From NCBI RefSeq assembly GCF_028288105.1, contig NZ_JAQBOI010000006.1, forward strand, positions 1 to 33,590: a DNA stretch of 33,590 nt, written 5' to 3'. How positions within the stretch are numbered: position 1 is the first letter of the stretch; each line of letters starts with the position of its first letter. Position numbers and translations under genes: made by a program. Under the pieces are notes generated by a model. The model was not told the origin of the DNA. It worked only from the letters and a program-made list of their open reading frames with translations, and made no database searches. Below, piece by piece: positions 2,361 to 13,654 of this stretch. This DNA comes from Mucilaginibacter sp. (lineage in GTDB: Bacteria; Bacteroidota; Bacteroidia; Sphingobacteriales; Sphingobacteriaceae).

Positions 2361-5300
2361 ATGCAGCAATTCAAAAATATGATTTTTAATTTACCTATAA
2401 GTATACATTTAAGAACACAACACACCGCTTATTTATTTATCCTGTTCACCATTTTATTAAGCAGCCCGCTTTTTGCACAGGCAACGGGTAAAACAGATGG
2501 CAACTATAAAACTATCACTAAACCTGTCTCGCTTGAATTTGCGCAGGTAAATGCAGTACAGATACTCGAAGTATTAAAAACACAAACCAATTATAATTTT
2601 ATTTACAACCCAAACGAGCTTGAAAAGGTTGAACTAAAGAAAGTGAGTTATCGCCAGGAAGCCTTGGGGAAAGTCCTGGAAAAACTAACCGTATCCGGCA
2701 TGAACTTTTCCTTGTCGGGCAACTCTATCTATGTAAATTATACCAAACCCGCTCCGCTCAGGAAACCAGATCCCGGCCGTATTAGTGGTAAAATAGTTGA
2801 CGATAAGGGTGAAACTTTACCGGGTGCCAGTATAAGGGTTATCCAAACAGGGCAGGGTATTACCAGCAGTGTAGATGGTAGCTACCAGTTAACGCTTGAA
2901 CCGGGTACTTACACACTGGAGGTAAGTTATATCTCTTTTCAAACCAAACGCATCACAGAGGTTATTGTTAAAGCCGGGCAGCTTACCAGGTTGGATATCT
3001 CTTTAAAGGTATCATCCAGCGCTTTAAAGGAAGTGGTAGTACAATCCTCTTTTAAAAGAGAATCGATAACCGGTTTGTATGCGCAGCAAAAAAATAATGC
3101 TTCTATAACGGATGGTATCTCTGCCGAGCAAATATCACGTACGCCAGATAATAATTTGGGTCAGGTGCTTAAACGCATCAGCGGGGTAACCACAATAGAT
3201 ACCCGCTATGTGGTAGTAAGAGGGTTAACCGAACGTTACAACCAGGCCATGCTTGATGGGGTGATCATCCCCAGTACGGATATGAACCGCAGAAATTTTT
3301 CGTTCGACGTAGTTCCGCAGGAGCTGGTGAGTAACGTGGTAGTTAACAAAACAGCCAGCCCGGATATGTCTGCAGAGTTTTCTGGAGGCCAGATCCTGAT
3401 CAACACCCTGGATATTCCGGAGCAAAATTTTAACTCCTTTACCATTGGTACCGGTTATAACAGCCGTACCACCGGTAAGGATTTTGTAATGCTGGGCGGC
3501 CGTGGTAAATACGATTACTTTGGTTTTGATGATGGCCGCAGAAAAACGCCGATGAACCTTCAAGCATGGACACAGCAAAACAGCACTGACCCAATCCCTG
3601 CTTACGCTGTACCACAAAGCAAACATTTTAACAGCGAACAGCTTAAAGCCTATACTTATCAAGGGGCGCTGAACCAAAATTACCGCTTTTCGCTTGGCCG
3701 TTTATACCAGTTGAGAGAAGGATTAAAATTTGGCTTCACCGGAGGCTTAACTTATCGTAATACGCAGGAAACTAACCCTTTTATAACAGTACGAAACTCA
3801 AATTTGACTTTTGCCGGCAAGGGCGATCCTATTGATACTGCCGCGATCAGAAGCTCGGGCAGCTTGTATAAATTTAATACCACCATTGGTGGGGTGTTGA
3901 ATGCAGGTGTTCAGGGCGAAAAATTTAAAATAACTTCTAAAAATTACTACTCTCACGTACTTAACGAAACTTCGCAATATGCTTCCAGGTATGATGCCAC
4001 AGAAAGCAAAAGATTTATTGAATTTTTTGACAGCCCCGAATTTACTACGGTTTACCAGAGCAAATTGGAAGGCGAAAACCTGATCGGTAAAAATGGATTA
4101 AAGTTTAACTGGAGTGGCGCGTTAACCAACATCAGTCAGGATATTAAGGATATGAGACGACTGAGGTATAACAAGACAGCCAGTATAGCGGGAGTAGATT
4201 ATTATGACAGCCCGAACACTTCGGTGTTTAGTGACGGATCTGGTCTTTATGATTACCGCTTATCAACACATTTAAATGAACGGGATTATAACTGGTCGGC
4301 CAGTTTGAGCCAGCCCTTTAATTTTTTAAAGGATAAAAGCGTACTAAAAGTAGGTTATAATGGCTGGCGAAAGCAACGTTCTTTAGGGTCAAGCGAGGTG
4401 CGTATTATTAAGCAAGACGCAAATGCAGAGTTAACCGGCAGGTACGAGGATATTCTTGCCCCCCAAAGAATAGGTGCTACTGCCGACTCTGCATTTTATT
4501 ATGCCGATGCATCACGTAATGGGACCCAGTATACAGGTTCTTCTAAATATCATGCAGCCTATCTGATGCTGGATCAACGCTTTTTTCAAAAATTGAGGGT
4601 TGTTTACGGCGTAAGGGCAGAGAATTTTAACCTGGCCAACAGGCAGGAACAGTTTCTGCGTGCCCCCAATTTTAATGGTTTTGAGAAAGTAAATCCATTT
4701 ATAACAGGTGAAAAGAACTGGCGTTTTTTGCCATCTGTAAATATAAGTTACAGCTTAACCGACAAGATGAACCTAAGGGCTGCGTATTCCACCACCGTGG
4801 TACGACCGGATTTTAGAGAAACTTCTTATTTTGAGTTGTACGATGCTTATTTAGACGCTTTTATTAGCGGTTGGGACGTAGTGAGCACCAAGATAAAAAA
4901 TTATGATCTGCGATATGAATGGTACCCTTCATCTGGGGAGATCATTTCAGTATCGGCATTCTATAAAGATTTTGATAAACCCTTAGAGCTGGTTGATCAG
5001 CCTGTGAGCGGGGGAGGAGGCAGGTCACGTTTCCTTCGTTTCCAAAACCAGGACAGGGCCATAAATAAGGGGATTGAAATAGAGGTGCGTAAATCATTGG
5101 ATTTTATAGCAGACAAGCAATGGCTGCATAACCTAACGGTGTTTGGAAATGGTACCTGGACAAAATCAAAGGTTTACGCTTTAGCATATTTTGTAGATGC
5201 TGTTAATAATGGCGAGTCATTTAAATTACGGCAAGAGGTTATCCCGGGTGTTAACCGTCCTTTGTATGGCCAGTCTCCCTGGATGGCAAATGCAGGTATC

Positions 5301-8292: not shown

Positions 8293-8348
8293 AAATATAT
8301 AATAAATTCTATAAAAACTATAGACATTATAGAATTTATTATATATTT
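8293..8348. repeat. 22-bp perfect inverted repeat at a promoter
   Basis: The arm 8293-8314 (AAATATATAATAAATTCTAT plus AA) is the exact reverse complement of 8327-8348, with a 12-nt spacer holding CTATAG. The right arm covers all but the last base of the -7 box of the promoter described next. As DNA it could be a dyad operator; as RNA it would lie upstream of the start site and so would not be transcribed from that promoter. A terminator for the upstream unit is possible but there is no T tract. The 8150-8292 stretch before it shows no gene. Confidence 0.75.
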
Positions 8349-8349: not shown

Positions 8350-8374
8350 CATCATCATAATCGTTCTTTAATAA

Positions 8375-8485
8375 CTTATCCAGAAAGACAGAGGGAAAGG
8401 CCCGAAGACGTCTTAGCAACCTGTACCGGCTTTTAAGCTTGTAAAAGGTGCTAATTCCTGCTCCATTTAATGGGAGAAAGATAAG
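8375..8485 (+). ncRNA. SAM-I (S-box) riboswitch
   Basis: A canonical SAM-I aptamer. P1 is CTTATC (8375-8380) with GATAAG (8480-8485). J1/2 is AGA, P2a is AAGAC with GTCTT, and the internal GAGGGA...GGCCCGAAGA forms the kink-turn and pseudoknot side. AGCAACC (8415-8421) is the conserved J2/3 core, GGTGCTAATTCC (8447-8458) the P3/J3-4 core, and P4 is CTCCAT with ATGGGAG. It precedes a cysteine desulfurase gene. Known S-box logic predicts the gene is off when SAM is plentiful. The expression platform is weak: the 3' P1 strand can also pair with TTATCTTT (about 8515-8522), which ends near a 7-T run at 8529-8535, and a second GATAAG lies at 8538-8543. Confidence 0.93.
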
Positions 8486-8583
8486 ATGACAAGAAATTAA
8501 AAGTTTACAGCGCTTTATCTTTTGTGTCTTTTTTTGAGATAAGTTACTAAAGTAACATAGTAACATTTTAAAATATTTAGAAG

Positions 8584-9732: not shown

Positions 9733-10179
9733 ATGAAGAAATATATCATCGGCGCAGGCATTATATTATCAGGGTTTTGCGCAAGCGCGCAAGTACTAAC
9801 CCCGGTAAAGTGGGCCTACGCTGCTAAAAAAATAAATAATAATGAAGCGGTTGTTTTGGTAAAAGCAACCATTGATAAAGGCTGGCATATTTACTCGCAA
9901 AACGTTGCGGATGGCGGCCCGGCAAAAACGGCGCTGGTCTTCAATAAATCTGACGAGTACACATTGGTGAACAAAACTATAGAACCGCAGCCACTTAAAA
10001 AGTACGAGAAGGCTTTTGATATGAATGTAACCTACTTTGAAAATACGGTAGTGTTTCAGCAGAAAGTTAGGCTGGTAAAAGATAAGCCGGTTATAAAAGG
10101 CACTATTTCATTTATGGCCTGTAGTAACAAAGAATGTTTACCGCCCGAAGATGTAGAATTTTCGGTCGCATTAAAATAG
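9733..10179 (+). CDS. Secreted DsbD N-terminal (alpha) domain-like protein
   Basis: A 148-aa periplasmic protein with a signal peptide cut after CASA (about residue 19). The remainder matches the immunoglobulin-like N-terminal domain of the thiol reductant transporter DsbD: VKATIDKGWHIYSQN, then a C-terminal ACSNKECLPPED with Cys130 and Cys135, equivalent to the redox pair of nDsbD. The membrane and thioredoxin parts of DsbD are absent, so it would act as a stand-alone thiol carrier or as partner of a DsbD elsewhere. It lies 12 nt after the cysteine desulfurase, under the same SAM riboswitch. Tandem TlpA-like oxidoreductases downstream fit a periplasmic thiol-redox role. Confidence 0.85.
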   Translation: MKKYIIGAGIILSGFCASAQVLTPVKWAYAAKKINNNEAVVLVKATIDKGWHIYSQNVADGGPAKTALVFNKSDEYTLVNKTIEPQPLKKYEKAFDMNVTYFENTVVFQQKVRLVKDKPVIKGTISFMACSNKECLPPEDVEFSVALK

Positions 10180-10270
10180 AACAGATATAAACACATATAC
10201 CCTTACACAATTAGATATTAAGTCAATCCTCCACCAATTGATTTTATTATTTATAAAGAATAATAAACAA

Positions 10271-10360
10271 ATGAAAACTGACGCATCTAAACATCTTATT
10301 GCCTTTCACCACTTAGCAACCCGCTCTGGTATCGCTATGCAAAGCTGTTGTTGCCTGTAA
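10271..10360 (+). CDS. Small ORF, 29 aa, ending Cys-Cys-Cys-Leu (candidate leader peptide)
   Basis: An ATG-started ORF 91 nt after the DsbD-like gene, preceded by an A-rich stretch typical of Bacteroidota start regions. The product begins MKTDASKHLIAF and ends GIAMQSCCCL; the Cys codons are TGT TGT TGC directly before Leu and the stop. There is no signal peptide or membrane helix. A run of Cys codons just before the stop, in a sulfur-gene leader, is what a ribosome-mediated cysteine sensor would look like, as known for poly-Cys uORFs in mycobacteria. A modified-peptide precursor is an alternative, but no maturase is nearby. Translation is not proven; the case rests on the resemblance to the second small ORF at 10763. 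Confidence 0.55.
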   Translation: MKTDASKHLIAFHHLATRSGIAMQSCCCL

Positions 10361-10406
10361 GTATCTACACGCAATCGGGACATTAAAACAAGATCTTATA
10401 AGATTA

Positions 10407-10492
10407 ACATCCTGGCACTGTGTATAGTGACAAGGCTTTATGCAATGGTGGAACTTCATTCAGCTAAATCTCTATTCCAGTAGCCGGGATGT
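10407..10492 (+). ncRNA. Candidate structured RNA after the Cys-rich small ORF
   Basis: The bases ACATCCTGGC (10407-10416) can pair with GCCGGGATGT (10483-10492) as a 10-bp helix with one G-U, closing about 66 nt. Inside are a small CACT/AGTG hairpin (10416-10429) and an AATGG/TCATT hairpin (about 10444-10460). It begins 47 nt after the stop of the poly-Cys ORF. I do not recognise a known family. It may be the regulatory half of the leader, or an ORF with chance structure, since a 32-codon frame (10440-10538) runs through it. Confidence 0.4.
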
Positions 10493-10538
10493 AAATCAAA
10501 AAACGATAACAAATACAAAAAATGTATTATTACACTAA
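10440..10538 (+). CDS. Possible small ORF, 32 aa
   Basis: An ATG frame within the leader encodes MQWWNFIQLNLYSSSRDVN and a polar tail. Tandem Trp followed by an amphipathic stretch is unusual for a random frame, but there is no domain or signal. It overlaps the 3' half of the candidate RNA structure, so either the structure or the coding may be real, or both in a translation-dependent switch. Low confidence. Confidence 0.25.
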   Translation: MQWWNFIQLNLYSSSRDVNQKTITNTKNVLLH

Positions 10539-10559
10539 ATATTTTAAATAAATACTACT

Positions 10560-10579
10560 AAGTCTATAGATTTAATTTG
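10560..10579 (+). promoter_or_regulatory. Candidate second promoter with TCTATAGA dyad
   Basis: AAGTCTATAGATTT (10560-10573) is a 14-bp dyad with one mismatch, and TAATTTGC (from 10573) is one base short of the TAnnTTTG -7 spacing. The same 8-bp word, in the opposite orientation (CTATAGAC, 8319-8326), lies in the promoter of the SAM riboswitch. This could start a separate transcript for the second leader module and the TlpA-like genes. Confidence 0.4.
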
Positions 10580-10632
10580 CTTTTTTAATATTTATTATTA
10601 CCTTTACTGCATCTAATTAACCCCACCATTAA

Positions 10633-10757
10633 TTAGTTGATTTATTAAGAAAAAGGGAGAGGAAGTCTCGATGATCTTTTAGCAACTTTTCAGATAGCCT
10701 GAAATAAGTGCTCTACTTTATCCAAAGGAATAATCTAACGGATAATAAATTAACTAA
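10633..10757 (+). ncRNA. Diverged SAM-I-like aptamer
   Basis: P1 is a 15-bp helix with one G-U: 10633-10647 (TTAGTTGATTTATTA) with 10743-10757. After it come AGA, then P2a AAAAG with CTTTT, P2b GAGA with TCTC, the kink-turn sequence CGATGA, and AGCAAC in the J2/3 position, in the same order as the canonical SAM-I element at 8375. P2a and P2b differ from that element by compensatory changes. P3 is CTTTTCAG with CTGAAATAAG, followed by GTGCTC where SAM-I has GTGCTAA. That core difference means the ligand or affinity may have changed. P1 ends 5 nt before the ATG of the Cys/Met small ORF, so ligand binding could mask its start. Confidence 0.65.
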
Positions 10758-10762
10758 GTGTT

Positions 10763-10840
10763 ATGAAAAATTTGAAGTATCCAAAACTAAACAGACAACC
10801 AGCCGCCGCCCCACCGCGATGTTGTTGTATGTGCATGTAG
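10763..10840 (+). CDS. Small ORF, 25 aa, ending Cys-Cys-Cys-Met-Cys-Met (candidate leader peptide)
   Basis: An ATG-started ORF beginning 5 nt after the P1 helix of the second SAM-like element. The product starts MKNLKYPKLNRQPAAAPP and ends RCCCMCM: the last six codons before TAG are TGT TGT TGT ATG TGC ATG, all sulfur amino acids. It is basic, has no membrane segment and is too short for a domain. The placement, between a SAM-like aptamer and the redox genes, and the similarity in plan to the 29-aa ORF at 10271 support a leader peptide that reports cysteine and methionine charging through ribosome stalling. That role is inference; the frame and residues are seen. Confidence 0.6.
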   Translation: MKNLKYPKLNRQPAAAPPRCCCMCM

Positions 10841-11000
10841 TTTCCGGCATTATCCAAGGTAAGTTTTAATTACACGGATTAAGTATTAATGGCTTTGCCG
10901 TTGATGCGCATGGAACTGTTATGCCTCAAAATTTCTATTACACTTCCTTAATATCCATTAAGCAAGTAAAAAATCATTAACAAAATCAAATTCTACAAAC
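10841..11000 (+). other. Leader segment with a module shared with 10434-10476
   Basis: This 160-nt gap before the first TlpA-like gene repeats three words of the earlier leader in the same order and similar spacing: GGCTTT (10891 versus 10434), TGGAACT (10911 versus 10449) and AAAT with TCTATT (10929 versus 10466). It also has a short ATG frame (10889-10951, MALPLMRMELLCLKISITLP) that I cannot support as a gene. Confidence 0.4.
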
Positions 11001-12317
11001 ATGAACTTCAAAAACTATCTATTAAAAGCAAAATACCTTACGCTGGGTGTTTTATTGAGTGGTGCAGCGTTGGCCGGCGACAAAGTGCCCGGCGCAAAAT
11101 TTATTAAAGAAGGTGTGTGGCGAGGGGTATTTACGGTAAGCGAATCGCAGGTGCCGTTCAACTTTGAGTTTAAGGGGAAAGATCCTAAGCATGCCATTTT
11201 TACCCTGATCAACGGTAGCCGCCGGGATGATTTCCATGTGCAGCGCCTGGGTAAAGATTCGGTATATATAAAAATGAATACTTATGATGCCGCCCTGGTT
11301 GCTAAAATTGAAGATGACGGCAAAATAAGTGGCGAGTATCGCAGCCTGGTACCGGGTTTTAGAGGTAACGCCCTGCCATTTACGGCCGAATATGGTAAAA
11401 GCTACCGCTTTGTTGAGCCTGGTAAAGATGTTGCACCTGCAGCTGATCTATCCGGAAAGTGGGAGATAAAAACCTATAGTAAAGAAGCCGTACCTGCATC
11501 TATCGCCATTATTAAACAAAAAGGAAACAAACTTACAGGTGTTATTATGACTGTTGTGGGCGATACCCGCGAACTGGAAGGCACTATACAAGGCGATGAA
11601 TTCGCGCTGAGCGGCTTTACCGGCCCAAGCCCTTTTATTGTAAAGGGAAAGGTTAACGCCGATGGTACTATTAGTGGTGAGCAAGGATTCGGGATCTATA
11701 AAAACTTAAAGTTTGATGCCACCAAAAATGCCAATGTTGAACTGCCCGATCCATATAAACTTACCTTCCTGAAAGAAGGATACAAGAAACTCGATTTCTC
11801 TTTCCCGGGTATTGATGGCAAACAGATCTCGTTAAGCGATCAAAAATATAAAGGCAAGGTTGTCATCATTGAAGTTATTGGCACCTGGTGCCCAAATTGC
11901 ACCGATCAAACCGTGTTCCTGTCGCCTTGGTTTAACAAAAACCGCCAGCGTGGGGTAGAGGCAATTGCCATTGGTTTTGAACAGAAAGATAGCCTGGAAT
12001 ATGCTAAATACACATTAGGCAAGCTTAAAGAAAAATACAATATCAATTACGATATAGCTTTTGGCGGCTTGGCCGATAAAAAACTGGTATCGCAAAAACT
12101 GCCTGCGCTTAACAAATTCGTGGCTTTCCCAACTACTATTATTGTTGACAGGAAAGGTGATGTCCGCGAGATCTATACAGGCTACACAGGTACCGTAACC
12201 GGCAAATACCACGATGATTACGAGAAGAAATTTAACAAGCTATTGGATGAGTTGATAGCTGAACCGGCACCAGAAACCGCGCAGGTTATTGATACCAACA
12301 CCCGCCAGGGCAATTAA
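11001..12317 (+). CDS. TlpA-like thioredoxin-fold oxidoreductase, copy 1
   Basis: A 438-aa exported protein. The signal peptide ends after AALA (about residue 25). Residues 30-255 form a beta-rich region of unknown family with two similar blocks (KFIKEGVWRGVFTVSESQVP and LSGKWEIKTYSKEAVPASIA). The C-terminal redoxin/TlpA domain (about 262-425) has the motif GTWCPNC with Cys297 and Cys300, and a cis-Pro segment FVAFPTTIIVDRKG. CPNC is an unusual dithiol pair that should be redox-active, probably reducing periplasmic disulfides or peroxides. A close paralogue follows 32 nt downstream. It is the first long gene after the Cys/Met leader region. Confidence 0.9.
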   Translation: MNFKNYLLKAKYLTLGVLLSGAALAGDKVPGAKFIKEGVWRGVFTVSESQVPFNFEFKGKDPKHAIFTLINGSRRDDFHVQRLGKDSVYIKMNTYDAALVAKIEDDGKISGEYRSLVPGFRGNALPFTAEYGKSYRFVEPGKDVAPAADLSGKWEIKTYSKEAVPASIAIIKQKGNKLTGVIMTVVGDTRELEGTIQGDEFALSGFTGPSPFIVKGKVNADGTISGEQGFGIYKNLKFDATKNANVELPDPYKLTFLKEGYKKLDFSFPGIDGKQISLSDQKYKGKVVIIEVIGTWCPNCTDQTVFLSPWFNKNRQRGVEAIAIGFEQKDSLEYAKYTLGKLKEKYNINYDIAFGGLADKKLVSQKLPALNKFVAFPTTIIVDRKGDVREIYTGYTGTVTGKYHDDYEKKFNKLLDELIAEPAPETAQVIDTNTRQGN

Positions 12318-12349: not shown

Positions 12350-13654
12350 ATGAAAAACAACAACTTAAAAGGGCTTTTAGTAGGCCTGTTATTTAGCGGT
12401 GCTGCCTTTGCAGGCGATAAAGAACCGGCTAAATTTATTAAAGAAGGCGTATGGCGCGGGGTGTTCCGCGTAAGCGAATCGCAGGTGCCGTTCAACTTTG
12501 AATTTAAGGGGAAGGATGCAGAGCACGCGGTTTTTACCTTATTAAACGGAAGCCGCCGTGATAACTTCCATGTACAAAAAATTGGCAAAGATTCGGTATT
12601 CATCAAAATGAATACCTACGATGCTGCACTGGTTGCCAAAATTGAAGATAATGGCACCCTAAGCGGGGAATACCGCAGTCTTGTACCGGGCTTTAGAGGA
12701 AACTCCTTGCCCTTTACTGCCGAGTATGGCAAAAGCTACCGTTTTGTTGAGCCCGGAAAGGATGTTGCCCCGGCAGCAAACCTTACCGGAAAATGGGAGC
12801 TGAAAGTATATTCGAAAGAGCAGGTGCCCAACAAGATTGCCGTTCTTAAACAAACAGGTAACAAACTTACAGGTGTAATAATGCAGGTAACCGGCGACAG
12901 CCGCGAACTGGAAGGCACCGTACAGGGCGACCAGTTTGAACTATCGGGCTTTACCGGCCCAAGTCCAAAGATCTACCGCGGTAAAATAAATGCCGATGGT
13001 ACATTAAGCGGCGAAATTGGTTCAGGTATTTATGATAACACCAAGTTTGACGCGGTGAAAGATGATGAAGCCGAACTGCCAGATCCATACAAGCTAACCT
13101 TTTTGAAAGAAGGCTACAAAAAGCTTGACTTTACCTTTCCTGATCTTAACGGCAAACCGGTATCATTAAGTGATGACAAGTACAAAGGCAAGGTTGTTAT
13201 TGTAGAAATAATAGGTACCTGGTGCCCTAACTGTACAGATCAAACAGTATTCCTGTCGCCTTGGTTCAATAAAAACCACCAGCGTGGGGTAGAAGCCATT
13301 GCCCTTGGCTTTGAACAAAAAGACAGCCTTAAATATGCCCAGTACACATTAGGCAAGCTGCGCGATAAATACAATGTTAAATATGACATACTGTTTGGTG
13401 GCCTGGCCGATAAAAAACTTGTATCGCAAAAACTGCCTGCGCTTAACAAATTTGTTGCATTCCCAACAACTATTATTATTGATAGAAAAGGCGAAGTGCG
13501 CGAGATCTACACAGGCTACACCGGCACGGTAACCGGCAAGTATTATAAGGATTACGAAAAGAAATTCAACGCCTTGCTGGATAAACTATTAGCAGAAGAA
13601 GCACCCGCAACTGCAGCAGTAAATACTGATGATAGCGCAATACAAGGAAGATAA
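12350..13654 (+). CDS. TlpA-like thioredoxin-fold oxidoreductase, copy 2
   Basis: A 434-aa paralogue of the preceding gene, alike along its whole length: the same signal peptide type (LLFSGAAFA), the KFIKEGVWRGVFRVSESQVP block, the GTWCPNC redox motif (Cys292, Cys295) and FVAFPTTIIIDRKGEVREIY. Long identical nucleotide runs point to a fairly recent tandem duplication, while the two beta-rich regions differ more (for instance SKEQVPNKIAVLKQTG against SKEAVPASIAIIKQKG). Both active sites are intact, so neither copy looks dead. It ends the first segment of the envelope redox unit; a strong terminator-like hairpin follows 42 nt after its stop. Confidence 0.9.
   Translation: MKNNNLKGLLVGLLFSGAAFAGDKEPAKFIKEGVWRGVFRVSESQVPFNFEFKGKDAEHAVFTLLNGSRRDNFHVQKIGKDSVFIKMNTYDAALVAKIEDNGTLSGEYRSLVPGFRGNSLPFTAEYGKSYRFVEPGKDVAPAANLTGKWELKVYSKEQVPNKIAVLKQTGNKLTGVIMQVTGDSRELEGTVQGDQFELSGFTGPSPKIYRGKINADGTLSGEIGSGIYDNTKFDAVKDDEAELPDPYKLTFLKEGYKKLDFTFPDLNGKPVSLSDDKYKGKVVIVEIIGTWCPNCTDQTVFLSPWFNKNHQRGVEAIALGFEQKDSLKYAQYTLGKLRDKYNVKYDILFGGLADKKLVSQKLPALNKFVAFPTTIIIDRKGEVREIYTGYTGTVTGKYYKDYEKKFNALLDKLLAEEAPATAAVNTDDSAIQGR

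Follow-up and report, generated by a model that had tools for sequence, protein, structure and literature searches.

We suggest that two short open reading frames (ORFs) lying ahead of redox genes in a Mucilaginibacter genome, here ORF1 and ORF2, are probably leader peptides that sense charged Cys-tRNA, with SAM probably gating their translation. What the sequence establishes is the ORFs themselves, the conservation of their Cys ends, the presence of a riboswitch and the spacing. That the frames are translated, that ribosomes stall on them and that SAM acts as a gate are inferences with no translation, stalling or expression data behind them, and the same holds for the output step, which might be early termination, mRNA decay or a change in translation.

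Two Cys-run ORFs and their setting

The window, by which we mean the whole 33.6-kb stretch of DNA that was analysed, contains a cysteine-desulfurase-like gene (Aminotran_5; the top NCBIfam model is NifS, under its cut-off) paired with a DsbD_N-like gene ending at 10179. Separated from this pair by 821 nt are two TlpA/AhpC-TSA-like paralogues in succession, located at 11001..12317 (plus strand; Pfam PF00578, 2.2e-14), the first gene after the ORF2 leader, and at 12350..13654 (plus strand; PF00578, 6.1e-14). ORF1 (10271..10360, plus strand) translates into the 29 aa MKTDASKHLIAFHHLATRSGIAMQSCCCL and ends in SCCCL, while ORF2 (10763..10840, plus strand) translates into the 25 aa MKNLKYPKLNRQPAAAPPRCCCMCM and ends in RCCCMCM, with its Cys codons at 10820-10828 and 10832-10834 and its end 160 nt from its gene. 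Chance occurrence was assessed by counting ATG-started ORFs of 10-45 aa that carry CCC within their last 8 residues. Dinucleotide shuffling of the 821-nt leader produced one such ORF in 15 of 20,000 shuffles and two in 0, and on both strands of the whole 33.6-kb window ORF1 and ORF2 are the only ORFs to satisfy the rule.

Several claims of an initial annotation, made from the sequence alone, held: the lengths and ends of the two ORFs (29 aa ending in CCCL and 25 aa ending in CCCMCM) are right and their coordinates exact, both do lie between a SAM-riboswitch-led desulfurase/DsbD pair and the TlpA genes, and two poly-Cys ends in one leader are indeed very unlikely by chance (0/20,000 shuffles). 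Its placement of both ORFs in one leader is probably wrong, a second SAM-I riboswitch and a promoter match belonging to it having gone unnoticed. SAM-I riboswitch 1 (8373..8487, plus strand; Rfam RF00162, 81.6 bits) precedes the desulfurase-like gene and has no CCC ORF downstream of it (leader L002). The second, divergent riboswitch (10639..10751, plus strand; RF00162, 50.3 bits versus a gathering score of 44.4) leaves 11 nt between its end and the ATG of ORF2. Its identity as SAM-I meets the gathering score of the covariance model, and SAM binding is inferred; it is well known which bases of the SAM-I aptamer touch SAM, and in the alignment to the RF00162 model the GCAAC and GUGC stretches are retained.

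A promoter of the Bacteroidota type is predicted for the ORF2 leader at 10576..10606 (plus strand), where the regular expression TTTG-N19-TACCTTTA, written after the generally known consensus for the phylum, finds a match; the other two of its three plus-strand matches in the window fall inside genes. The ORF2 ATG would lie 157 nt downstream of this predicted promoter with the riboswitch in between, an arrangement that leans against a leaderless start, the transcript start not having been mapped. The plus-strand order is then operon 1, a CCACC hairpin, ORF1, a long hairpin, the promoter, a second CCACC hairpin, the SAM riboswitch, ORF2 and the TlpA genes. Because the second riboswitch, the promoter match and a strong hairpin all lie between the two ORFs, we think it likely that the 821-nt stretch is not a single leader, and that ORF1 trails the desulfurase/DsbD genes and ORF2 sits in a riboswitch leader of its own.

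Conservation of the Cys ends in TlpA leaders

A search with the TlpA-like protein against genome contigs returned 43 loci from Mucilaginibacter, Pedobacter, Chitinophaga and one Sphingobacteriaceae bin, which together with the window gave 44 leaders of up to 760 nt each. These loci are related and hence do not count as independent cases. In 40 of the 44 leaders there is a short ORF whose last 12 residues include CC and three or more Cys, on the reverse strand there is none (0/44), and CCC falls within the last 13 residues in 35/44; across 200 shuffled leader sets, the mean was 0.745 of 44 and the maximum 4. In each of the four leaders that fail the rule (L146, L158, L159 and L168), a short ORF is present whose Cys run is no more than CC. 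Peptide ends vary by clade (RCCCMCM, RCCCLVQYAFWF, RCCCCCL, KFCCCMCM, QNSCCCK, CMPCCCR), and in some leaders the Cys run is eroded (RCCIIQF, RCCSIQF, RCCW, SRCCK). The CCCMCM end of ORF2 is retained in the nearest relative and, as KFCCCMCM, in four Pedobacter.

The frame of ORF1 is likewise retained in the nearest relative, L134, where it is one residue longer. A short ORF whose end contains CC lies near the ORF1 position in 15 other Mucilaginibacter loci, and L146, not among these, has one farther upstream; no equivalent was seen in L139, and the sequences of L135 and L148 are cut short for this comparison. Pedobacter leaders of the L158-L167 kind encode ORF1-like peptides (e.g. YNCCCR), followed by the AUGGUGG hairpin and then by CCACC hairpins, and mostly lack ORF2; a SAM aptamer match was obtained in three of the four scanned (L158, L160 and L164, not L162). 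In Pedobacter sp. V48-type and Chitinophaga leaders ORF2 is present, with no aptamer match where scanned (L150, L155, L171, L173, L176). Altogether, an Rfam scan of 17 of the 43 loci placed a SAM-I match in the TlpA leader of 11 (51.3-62.2 bits) and none in that of the six others (L150, L155, L162, L171, L173, L176); L150 and L155 have a match farther upstream, which in L150 is ahead of a desulfurase-like gene.

The initial annotation had named non-conservation of the frames or Cys codons in relatives as grounds for refutation, and had proposed the search that would reveal it. The outcome favours it: Cys-run ends are retained in Mucilaginibacter, Pedobacter and Chitinophaga while the remaining peptide changes. 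Its reading of the ORFs as Cys-sensing leader peptides is largely supported, whereas ribosome stalling under cysteine shortage and the switching of the downstream genes by it are inferred, in the absence of translation or expression data. The case for methionine sensing, which it had also raised, is weaker, and Met is missing from many other TlpA tails.

Poly-Cys ORFs behind other SAM riboswitches

A poly-Cys ORF follows three of the six SAM riboswitches found in this genome, in leaders L001 (SusC/TonB receptor), L004 (metY, an O-acetylhomoserine-sulfhydrylase-like gene) and L006 (TlpA), and none follows those of the desulfurase, a peroxiredoxin-like gene and a metH-like gene; gene names for L001 and L003-L005 were read from translations. 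These six leaders, 29 from the genus and 89 from a phylum sample (29 arriving as loci and 60 chosen places) make up a set of 124, in which a few leaders lack the full downstream stretch. A CCC ORF lies between aptamer and gene in 12 of the 124 and on the reverse strand of none (0/124), leaving 112 examined SAM leaders without one. Outside the genus, such ORFs occur in L213 (same family, metY), in L225 (family f2), and in L237, L239 and L240, all from one GC-rich genome of family f9 and with metY among them; the examined SAM leaders from other families had none. Equivalent poly-Cys ORFs precede metY, TonB receptors and a cysH-like gene. The poly-Cys-led TonB receptor of L035 is convergent to genes for siroheme synthesis, cysH, cysD and cysN, and metY is followed by metX-like and homoserine-dehydrogenase-like genes, all these names again being read from translations.

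We note that the SAM riboswitch of L225 precedes a PAPS-reductase-like gene, and that the ORF in between, MKKTTTFPSKTTVANAFKFAAACCCCQKFAACCCKC, contains two Cys runs. A search of the window's own genome for TGYTGYTGYTRR gave 83 matches against 12 for the reversed pattern, an excess that we reject as evidence, as it seems to be mostly the other strand of ordinary coding sequence. Among 67 distinct Cys3-stop places that were read (TGG ends dropped), 12 have an ORF that starts with ATG and does not exceed 60 aa, and only four (L035, L049, L059, L074) were accepted as leaders by context; others, such as L011 and L018, seem to be inside coding frames.

Leaders of metY

In Mucilaginibacter, a poly-Cys ORF is present in 50/50 usable metY leaders (L330 and 9 of 59 close matches are left out of this count), and in 47 of them CCC occurs within the last six residues. 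The last 8 residues contain on average 5.44 Cys and 1.2 Met, with Cys making up about 2% of residues elsewhere, and mean pairwise identity is 0.61 over these last 8 residues versus 0.16 over residues 2-21. The Cys codons in the last 11 positions number 289, of which 169 are TGT and 120 TGC; hence Cys is retained while the codon varies.

In a family sample of 30 metY leaders, a strict rule (CCC, CxCC or CCxC) was passed by 17. The SAM core motif is present in 26 of the 30, and under a looser rule (CC anywhere among the final five residues of the ORF) 21 of those 26 have the ORF. It is absent from the other five SAM-bearing leaders (L277, L287, L288, L289 and L293), in all of which the aptamer is confirmed by Rfam, and the four leaders without a SAM match have no ORF at that place; L276, which has no SAM match, has a CCWL-ended frame far upstream. 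The start codon lies 47-57 nt after the aptamer core GGTGCYA in 20 of the 21 leaders, and 38 nt after it in one. The metY leader ORF therefore starts directly behind P1.

RNA structure around the ORFs

No U-tract terminator (GC stem followed by a U-tract) was found on the plus strand between 10100 and 11050, and the window leader lacks the intrinsic terminator that a classical attenuator has between leader ORF and gene. A hairpin whose 5' arm includes the end and stop codon of ORF2 is predicted at 10833..10924 (plus strand), weakly (fold of 10821-10935, z -1.79), and it is conceivable that a ribosome stalled on the CCC codons of ORF2 would block it. The form of the hairpin behind ORF2 differs between clades: RNAalifold reports structure there only within close sets (the window's own clade, the V48 type, Chitinophaga, and L143/L144/L148/L149) and little across the remaining Mucilaginibacter.

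RNAalifold found no common structure in the corresponding region of the metY leaders (energy -0.5, almost none), a failure that might be due to hairpin arms shifting in the alignment, and we therefore searched for helices sequence by sequence. In 49/50 leaders, a helix with 5 pairs or more begins no farther than 18 nt past the stop, and in 45 it does so at 4-11 nt. Its arms differ with pairing kept (ACACGU:ACGUGU, GCACGC:GCGUGU, CCACGU:ACGUGG, CAUCACU:GGUGAUG), and the best-helix score exceeds the mean of the leader's own mononucleotide shuffles in 47/50 (average 14.5 versus 11.8). The fold z of the region behind the ORF averages -1.8 and is -1.5 or lower in 31/50. In 46/50, the 5' arm of the helix shares 3 nt or more with the segment pairing best with the Cys-codon region, but the duplex between Cys codons and downstream arm is only slightly better than shuffled (mean z -0.92). 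Given this weak duplex and the lack of a common RNAalifold structure, the arm overlap makes a two-state RNA switch behind the metY ORFs a plausible possibility and does not show it.

Between ORF1 and the predicted promoter lies a long conserved hairpin that carries AUGGUGG towards its apex (10407..10492, plus strand; fold z -3.92; 36 sequences, own included), which had no match among Rfam families up to E 5. It may govern read-through from operon 1. We also observe that its stems are almost wholly different between Mucilaginibacter and Pedobacter, with pairing retained.

A proposed model of two sulfur inputs

We posit that the ORF2 leader would take two inputs, SAM first and cysteine second. 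With SAM bound, the leader-peptide start site would probably be closed, since ORF2 begins only 11 nt behind the P1 stem of the riboswitch; at low SAM, P1 would open and free the A/U-rich region in which the leader peptide starts. A ribosome would then start at the ATG and, provided that Cys-tRNA is charged, pass the Cys codons; if cysteine is scarce, it would slow or stall just ahead of the stop. The stalled ribosome would mask the RNA around the stop codon and decide the next hairpin, so that the sulfur and redox genes are turned up. ORF1, in turn, would probably control read-through into the second operon by way of the 10407-10492 hairpin.

A bolder reading, on which we would not lean to either side, is that of a nested gate, in which the SAM-I riboswitch controls the start of a leader peptide and not that of a sulfur gene, and release comes only if SAM is low and Cys-tRNA short. 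The same module would then serve methionine synthesis, sulfur-linked TonB receptors and periplasmic thiol-redox genes throughout the Sphingobacteriaceae and, here and there, in other families.

Alternative explanations

One alternative is that the short ORFs encode trans-acting Cys-rich micropeptides, for instance binding metal or sulfane sulfur, and that their position before sulfur genes reflects co-expression. The Cys-rich ends and the redox and sulfur neighbours speak for it, as does the extra conserved stretch (VQYAFWF and similar) that follows the Cys run in many Mucilaginibacter ORF2. We nevertheless consider it unlikely, since N-terminal identity among the metY peptides is just 0.16, lengths span 12 aa (MKNLKFCCCMCM) to more than 40 aa, four of the short peptides had no match when searched against Pfam and NCBIfam, and the leaders of unlinked genes have only the Cys end and its position in common.

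It is also doubtful that the ORFs report methionine or general translation (ribosome delivery, reinitiation) and not cysteine. The peptide ends are often rich in Met (on average 1.2 of the final 8 residues for metY, and CCCMCM in the window), and leader ORFs with reinitiation have been proposed in Bacteroidetes, their distance from the gene peaking at 11-14 bp (PMC4833913). Against this, Cys is about 4.5 times as frequent as Met in the metY tails, ORF2 ends 160 nt and not 11-14 from its gene, and the riboswitch already reports on SAM.

That the frames are mere by-products of RNA conserved as a structure or binding site (the SAM aptamer, the GGUGG and CCACC hairpins), with the TGTTGTTG stretches being structural, can draw on the near constancy of CGATGTTGTTG in many Mucilaginibacter ORF2 and on the structured RNAs that surround both ORFs, but is very unlikely when Cys codons alternate between TGT and TGC, the ORF1 of L134 is one residue longer and in frame, the DNA encoding the Cys-run ends is markedly different in Chitinophaga, Pedobacter and the metY leaders, and the reverse strands of the TlpA and SAM leaders hold zero Cys-run ORFs.

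Relation to known systems

Leader peptides that sense charged Cys-tRNA remain our preferred reading, and they have a precedent in the Actinobacteria. Leader peptides with a Cys run near the stop have been proposed in Mycobacterium, Propionibacterium and Bifidobacterium (Seliverstov et al. 2005, PMC1262725), and attenuation has been proposed for the actinobacterial poly-Cys leaders (PMC1262725; Shell et al. 2015, PMC4633059). The mycobacterial leaders have no conserved terminator hairpin (PMC1262725), and ribosome occupancy has been observed on poly-Cys leader ORFs of M. smegmatis (PMC4633059). Going by its title as cited in PMC13236596, the work of Canestrari et al. (2020) concerns leaderless, cysteine-responsive attenuation in mycobacteria. 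The ORFs described here match these in being short and lying ahead of sulfur genes, in having consecutive Cys codons close to the stop, and in conserving the Cys end among relatives while the rest has diverged. They differ in belonging to another phylum, the mycobacterial ones being moreover leaderless by that title, in that ORF2 and the metY ORFs lie directly behind a SAM-I riboswitch, and in having TonB receptors and TlpA-like proteins among their targets. We would make a similar distinction for the SAM-I riboswitch itself (RF00162): the aptamers here reach the gathering score, but what is translated next is probably a leader peptide and not the sulfur gene.

Closer in phylogeny, leader-peptide attenuation of amino-acid synthesis operons has been mentioned in general terms for Flavobacterium psychrophilum (PMC9723704), and small ORFs in long 5' UTRs in Bacteroides thetaiotaomicron (PMC7366714). 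The trp and his attenuators are the classical examples. Shared with such attenuators are a leader ORF with regulatory codons and, in the metY leaders, possible alternative hairpins; in contrast, the Cys codons here are at the very end of the ORF, a riboswitch stands in front, and the window leader has no U-tract terminator. We found no cysteine case in Bacteroidota in the open-access literature searched (supplements excluded, subscription papers mostly outside), and none is named in the relevant passages of PMC9723704 and PMC7366714 (supplements excluded).

If the proposal is true, cysteine-responsive leader peptides extend from Actinobacteria to Bacteroidota, the hosts here being soil Bacteroidota, and two unrelated RNA sensors in one leader form a logic gate, so that the production of sulfur enzymes and transporters probably depends on two sulfur signals. 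It would also supply a sequence handle: an ORF that ends in Cys codons and starts within about 10 nt behind a SAM aptamer would predict sulfur-responsive transporters and redox genes.

Other features of the leaders

Two hairpins of the window carry CCACC in the loop. A small one lies upstream of ORF1 (10220..10244, plus strand; fold z -1.81), and another, CTAATTAA-CCCCACCA-TTAATTAG, lies close to where the ORF2 leader is predicted to begin (10613..10636, plus strand; fold of 10608-10642, z -4.45), the latter being conserved in Mucilaginibacter and taking a varied form in Pedobacter. Such hairpins recur in relatives L134-L176, in a comparison that leaves out L135, L148 and L154. The AUGGUGG loop of the long hairpin is complementary to the CCACC loops over 7-9 contiguous nt in 36/36 sequences with both. 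A kissing interaction between the GGUGG and CCACC loops was considered and is not upheld: covariation is unsupportive, and 159 of 2000 permutations with partners from other loci reach the real mean. The CCACC hairpin is also rejected as a general motif, copies with at most 3 mismatches being present in only 5 of 101 family genomes.

Riboswitch arrangement varies as well. Two Pedobacter TlpA leaders have SAM-I riboswitches in tandem, at 3077-3182 and 3215-3325 in L157 and at 3077-3182 and 3215-3324 in L168, each of them sitting behind a CCACC motif. In L150, L155 and L171-L173, no SAM aptamer match was obtained (L172 was not scanned) and the poly-Cys ORF remains; a short hairpin seems to sit there on an apparently identical P1 stem.

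Finally, a TCTATAGA palindrome, a candidate operator, lies upstream of the second promoter (10563..10570, plus strand). Similar palindromes are also found, upstream of promoters, at window position 8318 and in leaders L001, L002, L003, L035 and L059, and these sites may be the operator of a transcription factor common to several sulfur leaders. The Pedobacter equivalent of this palindrome is CTACTAAATTAGTAG-like.
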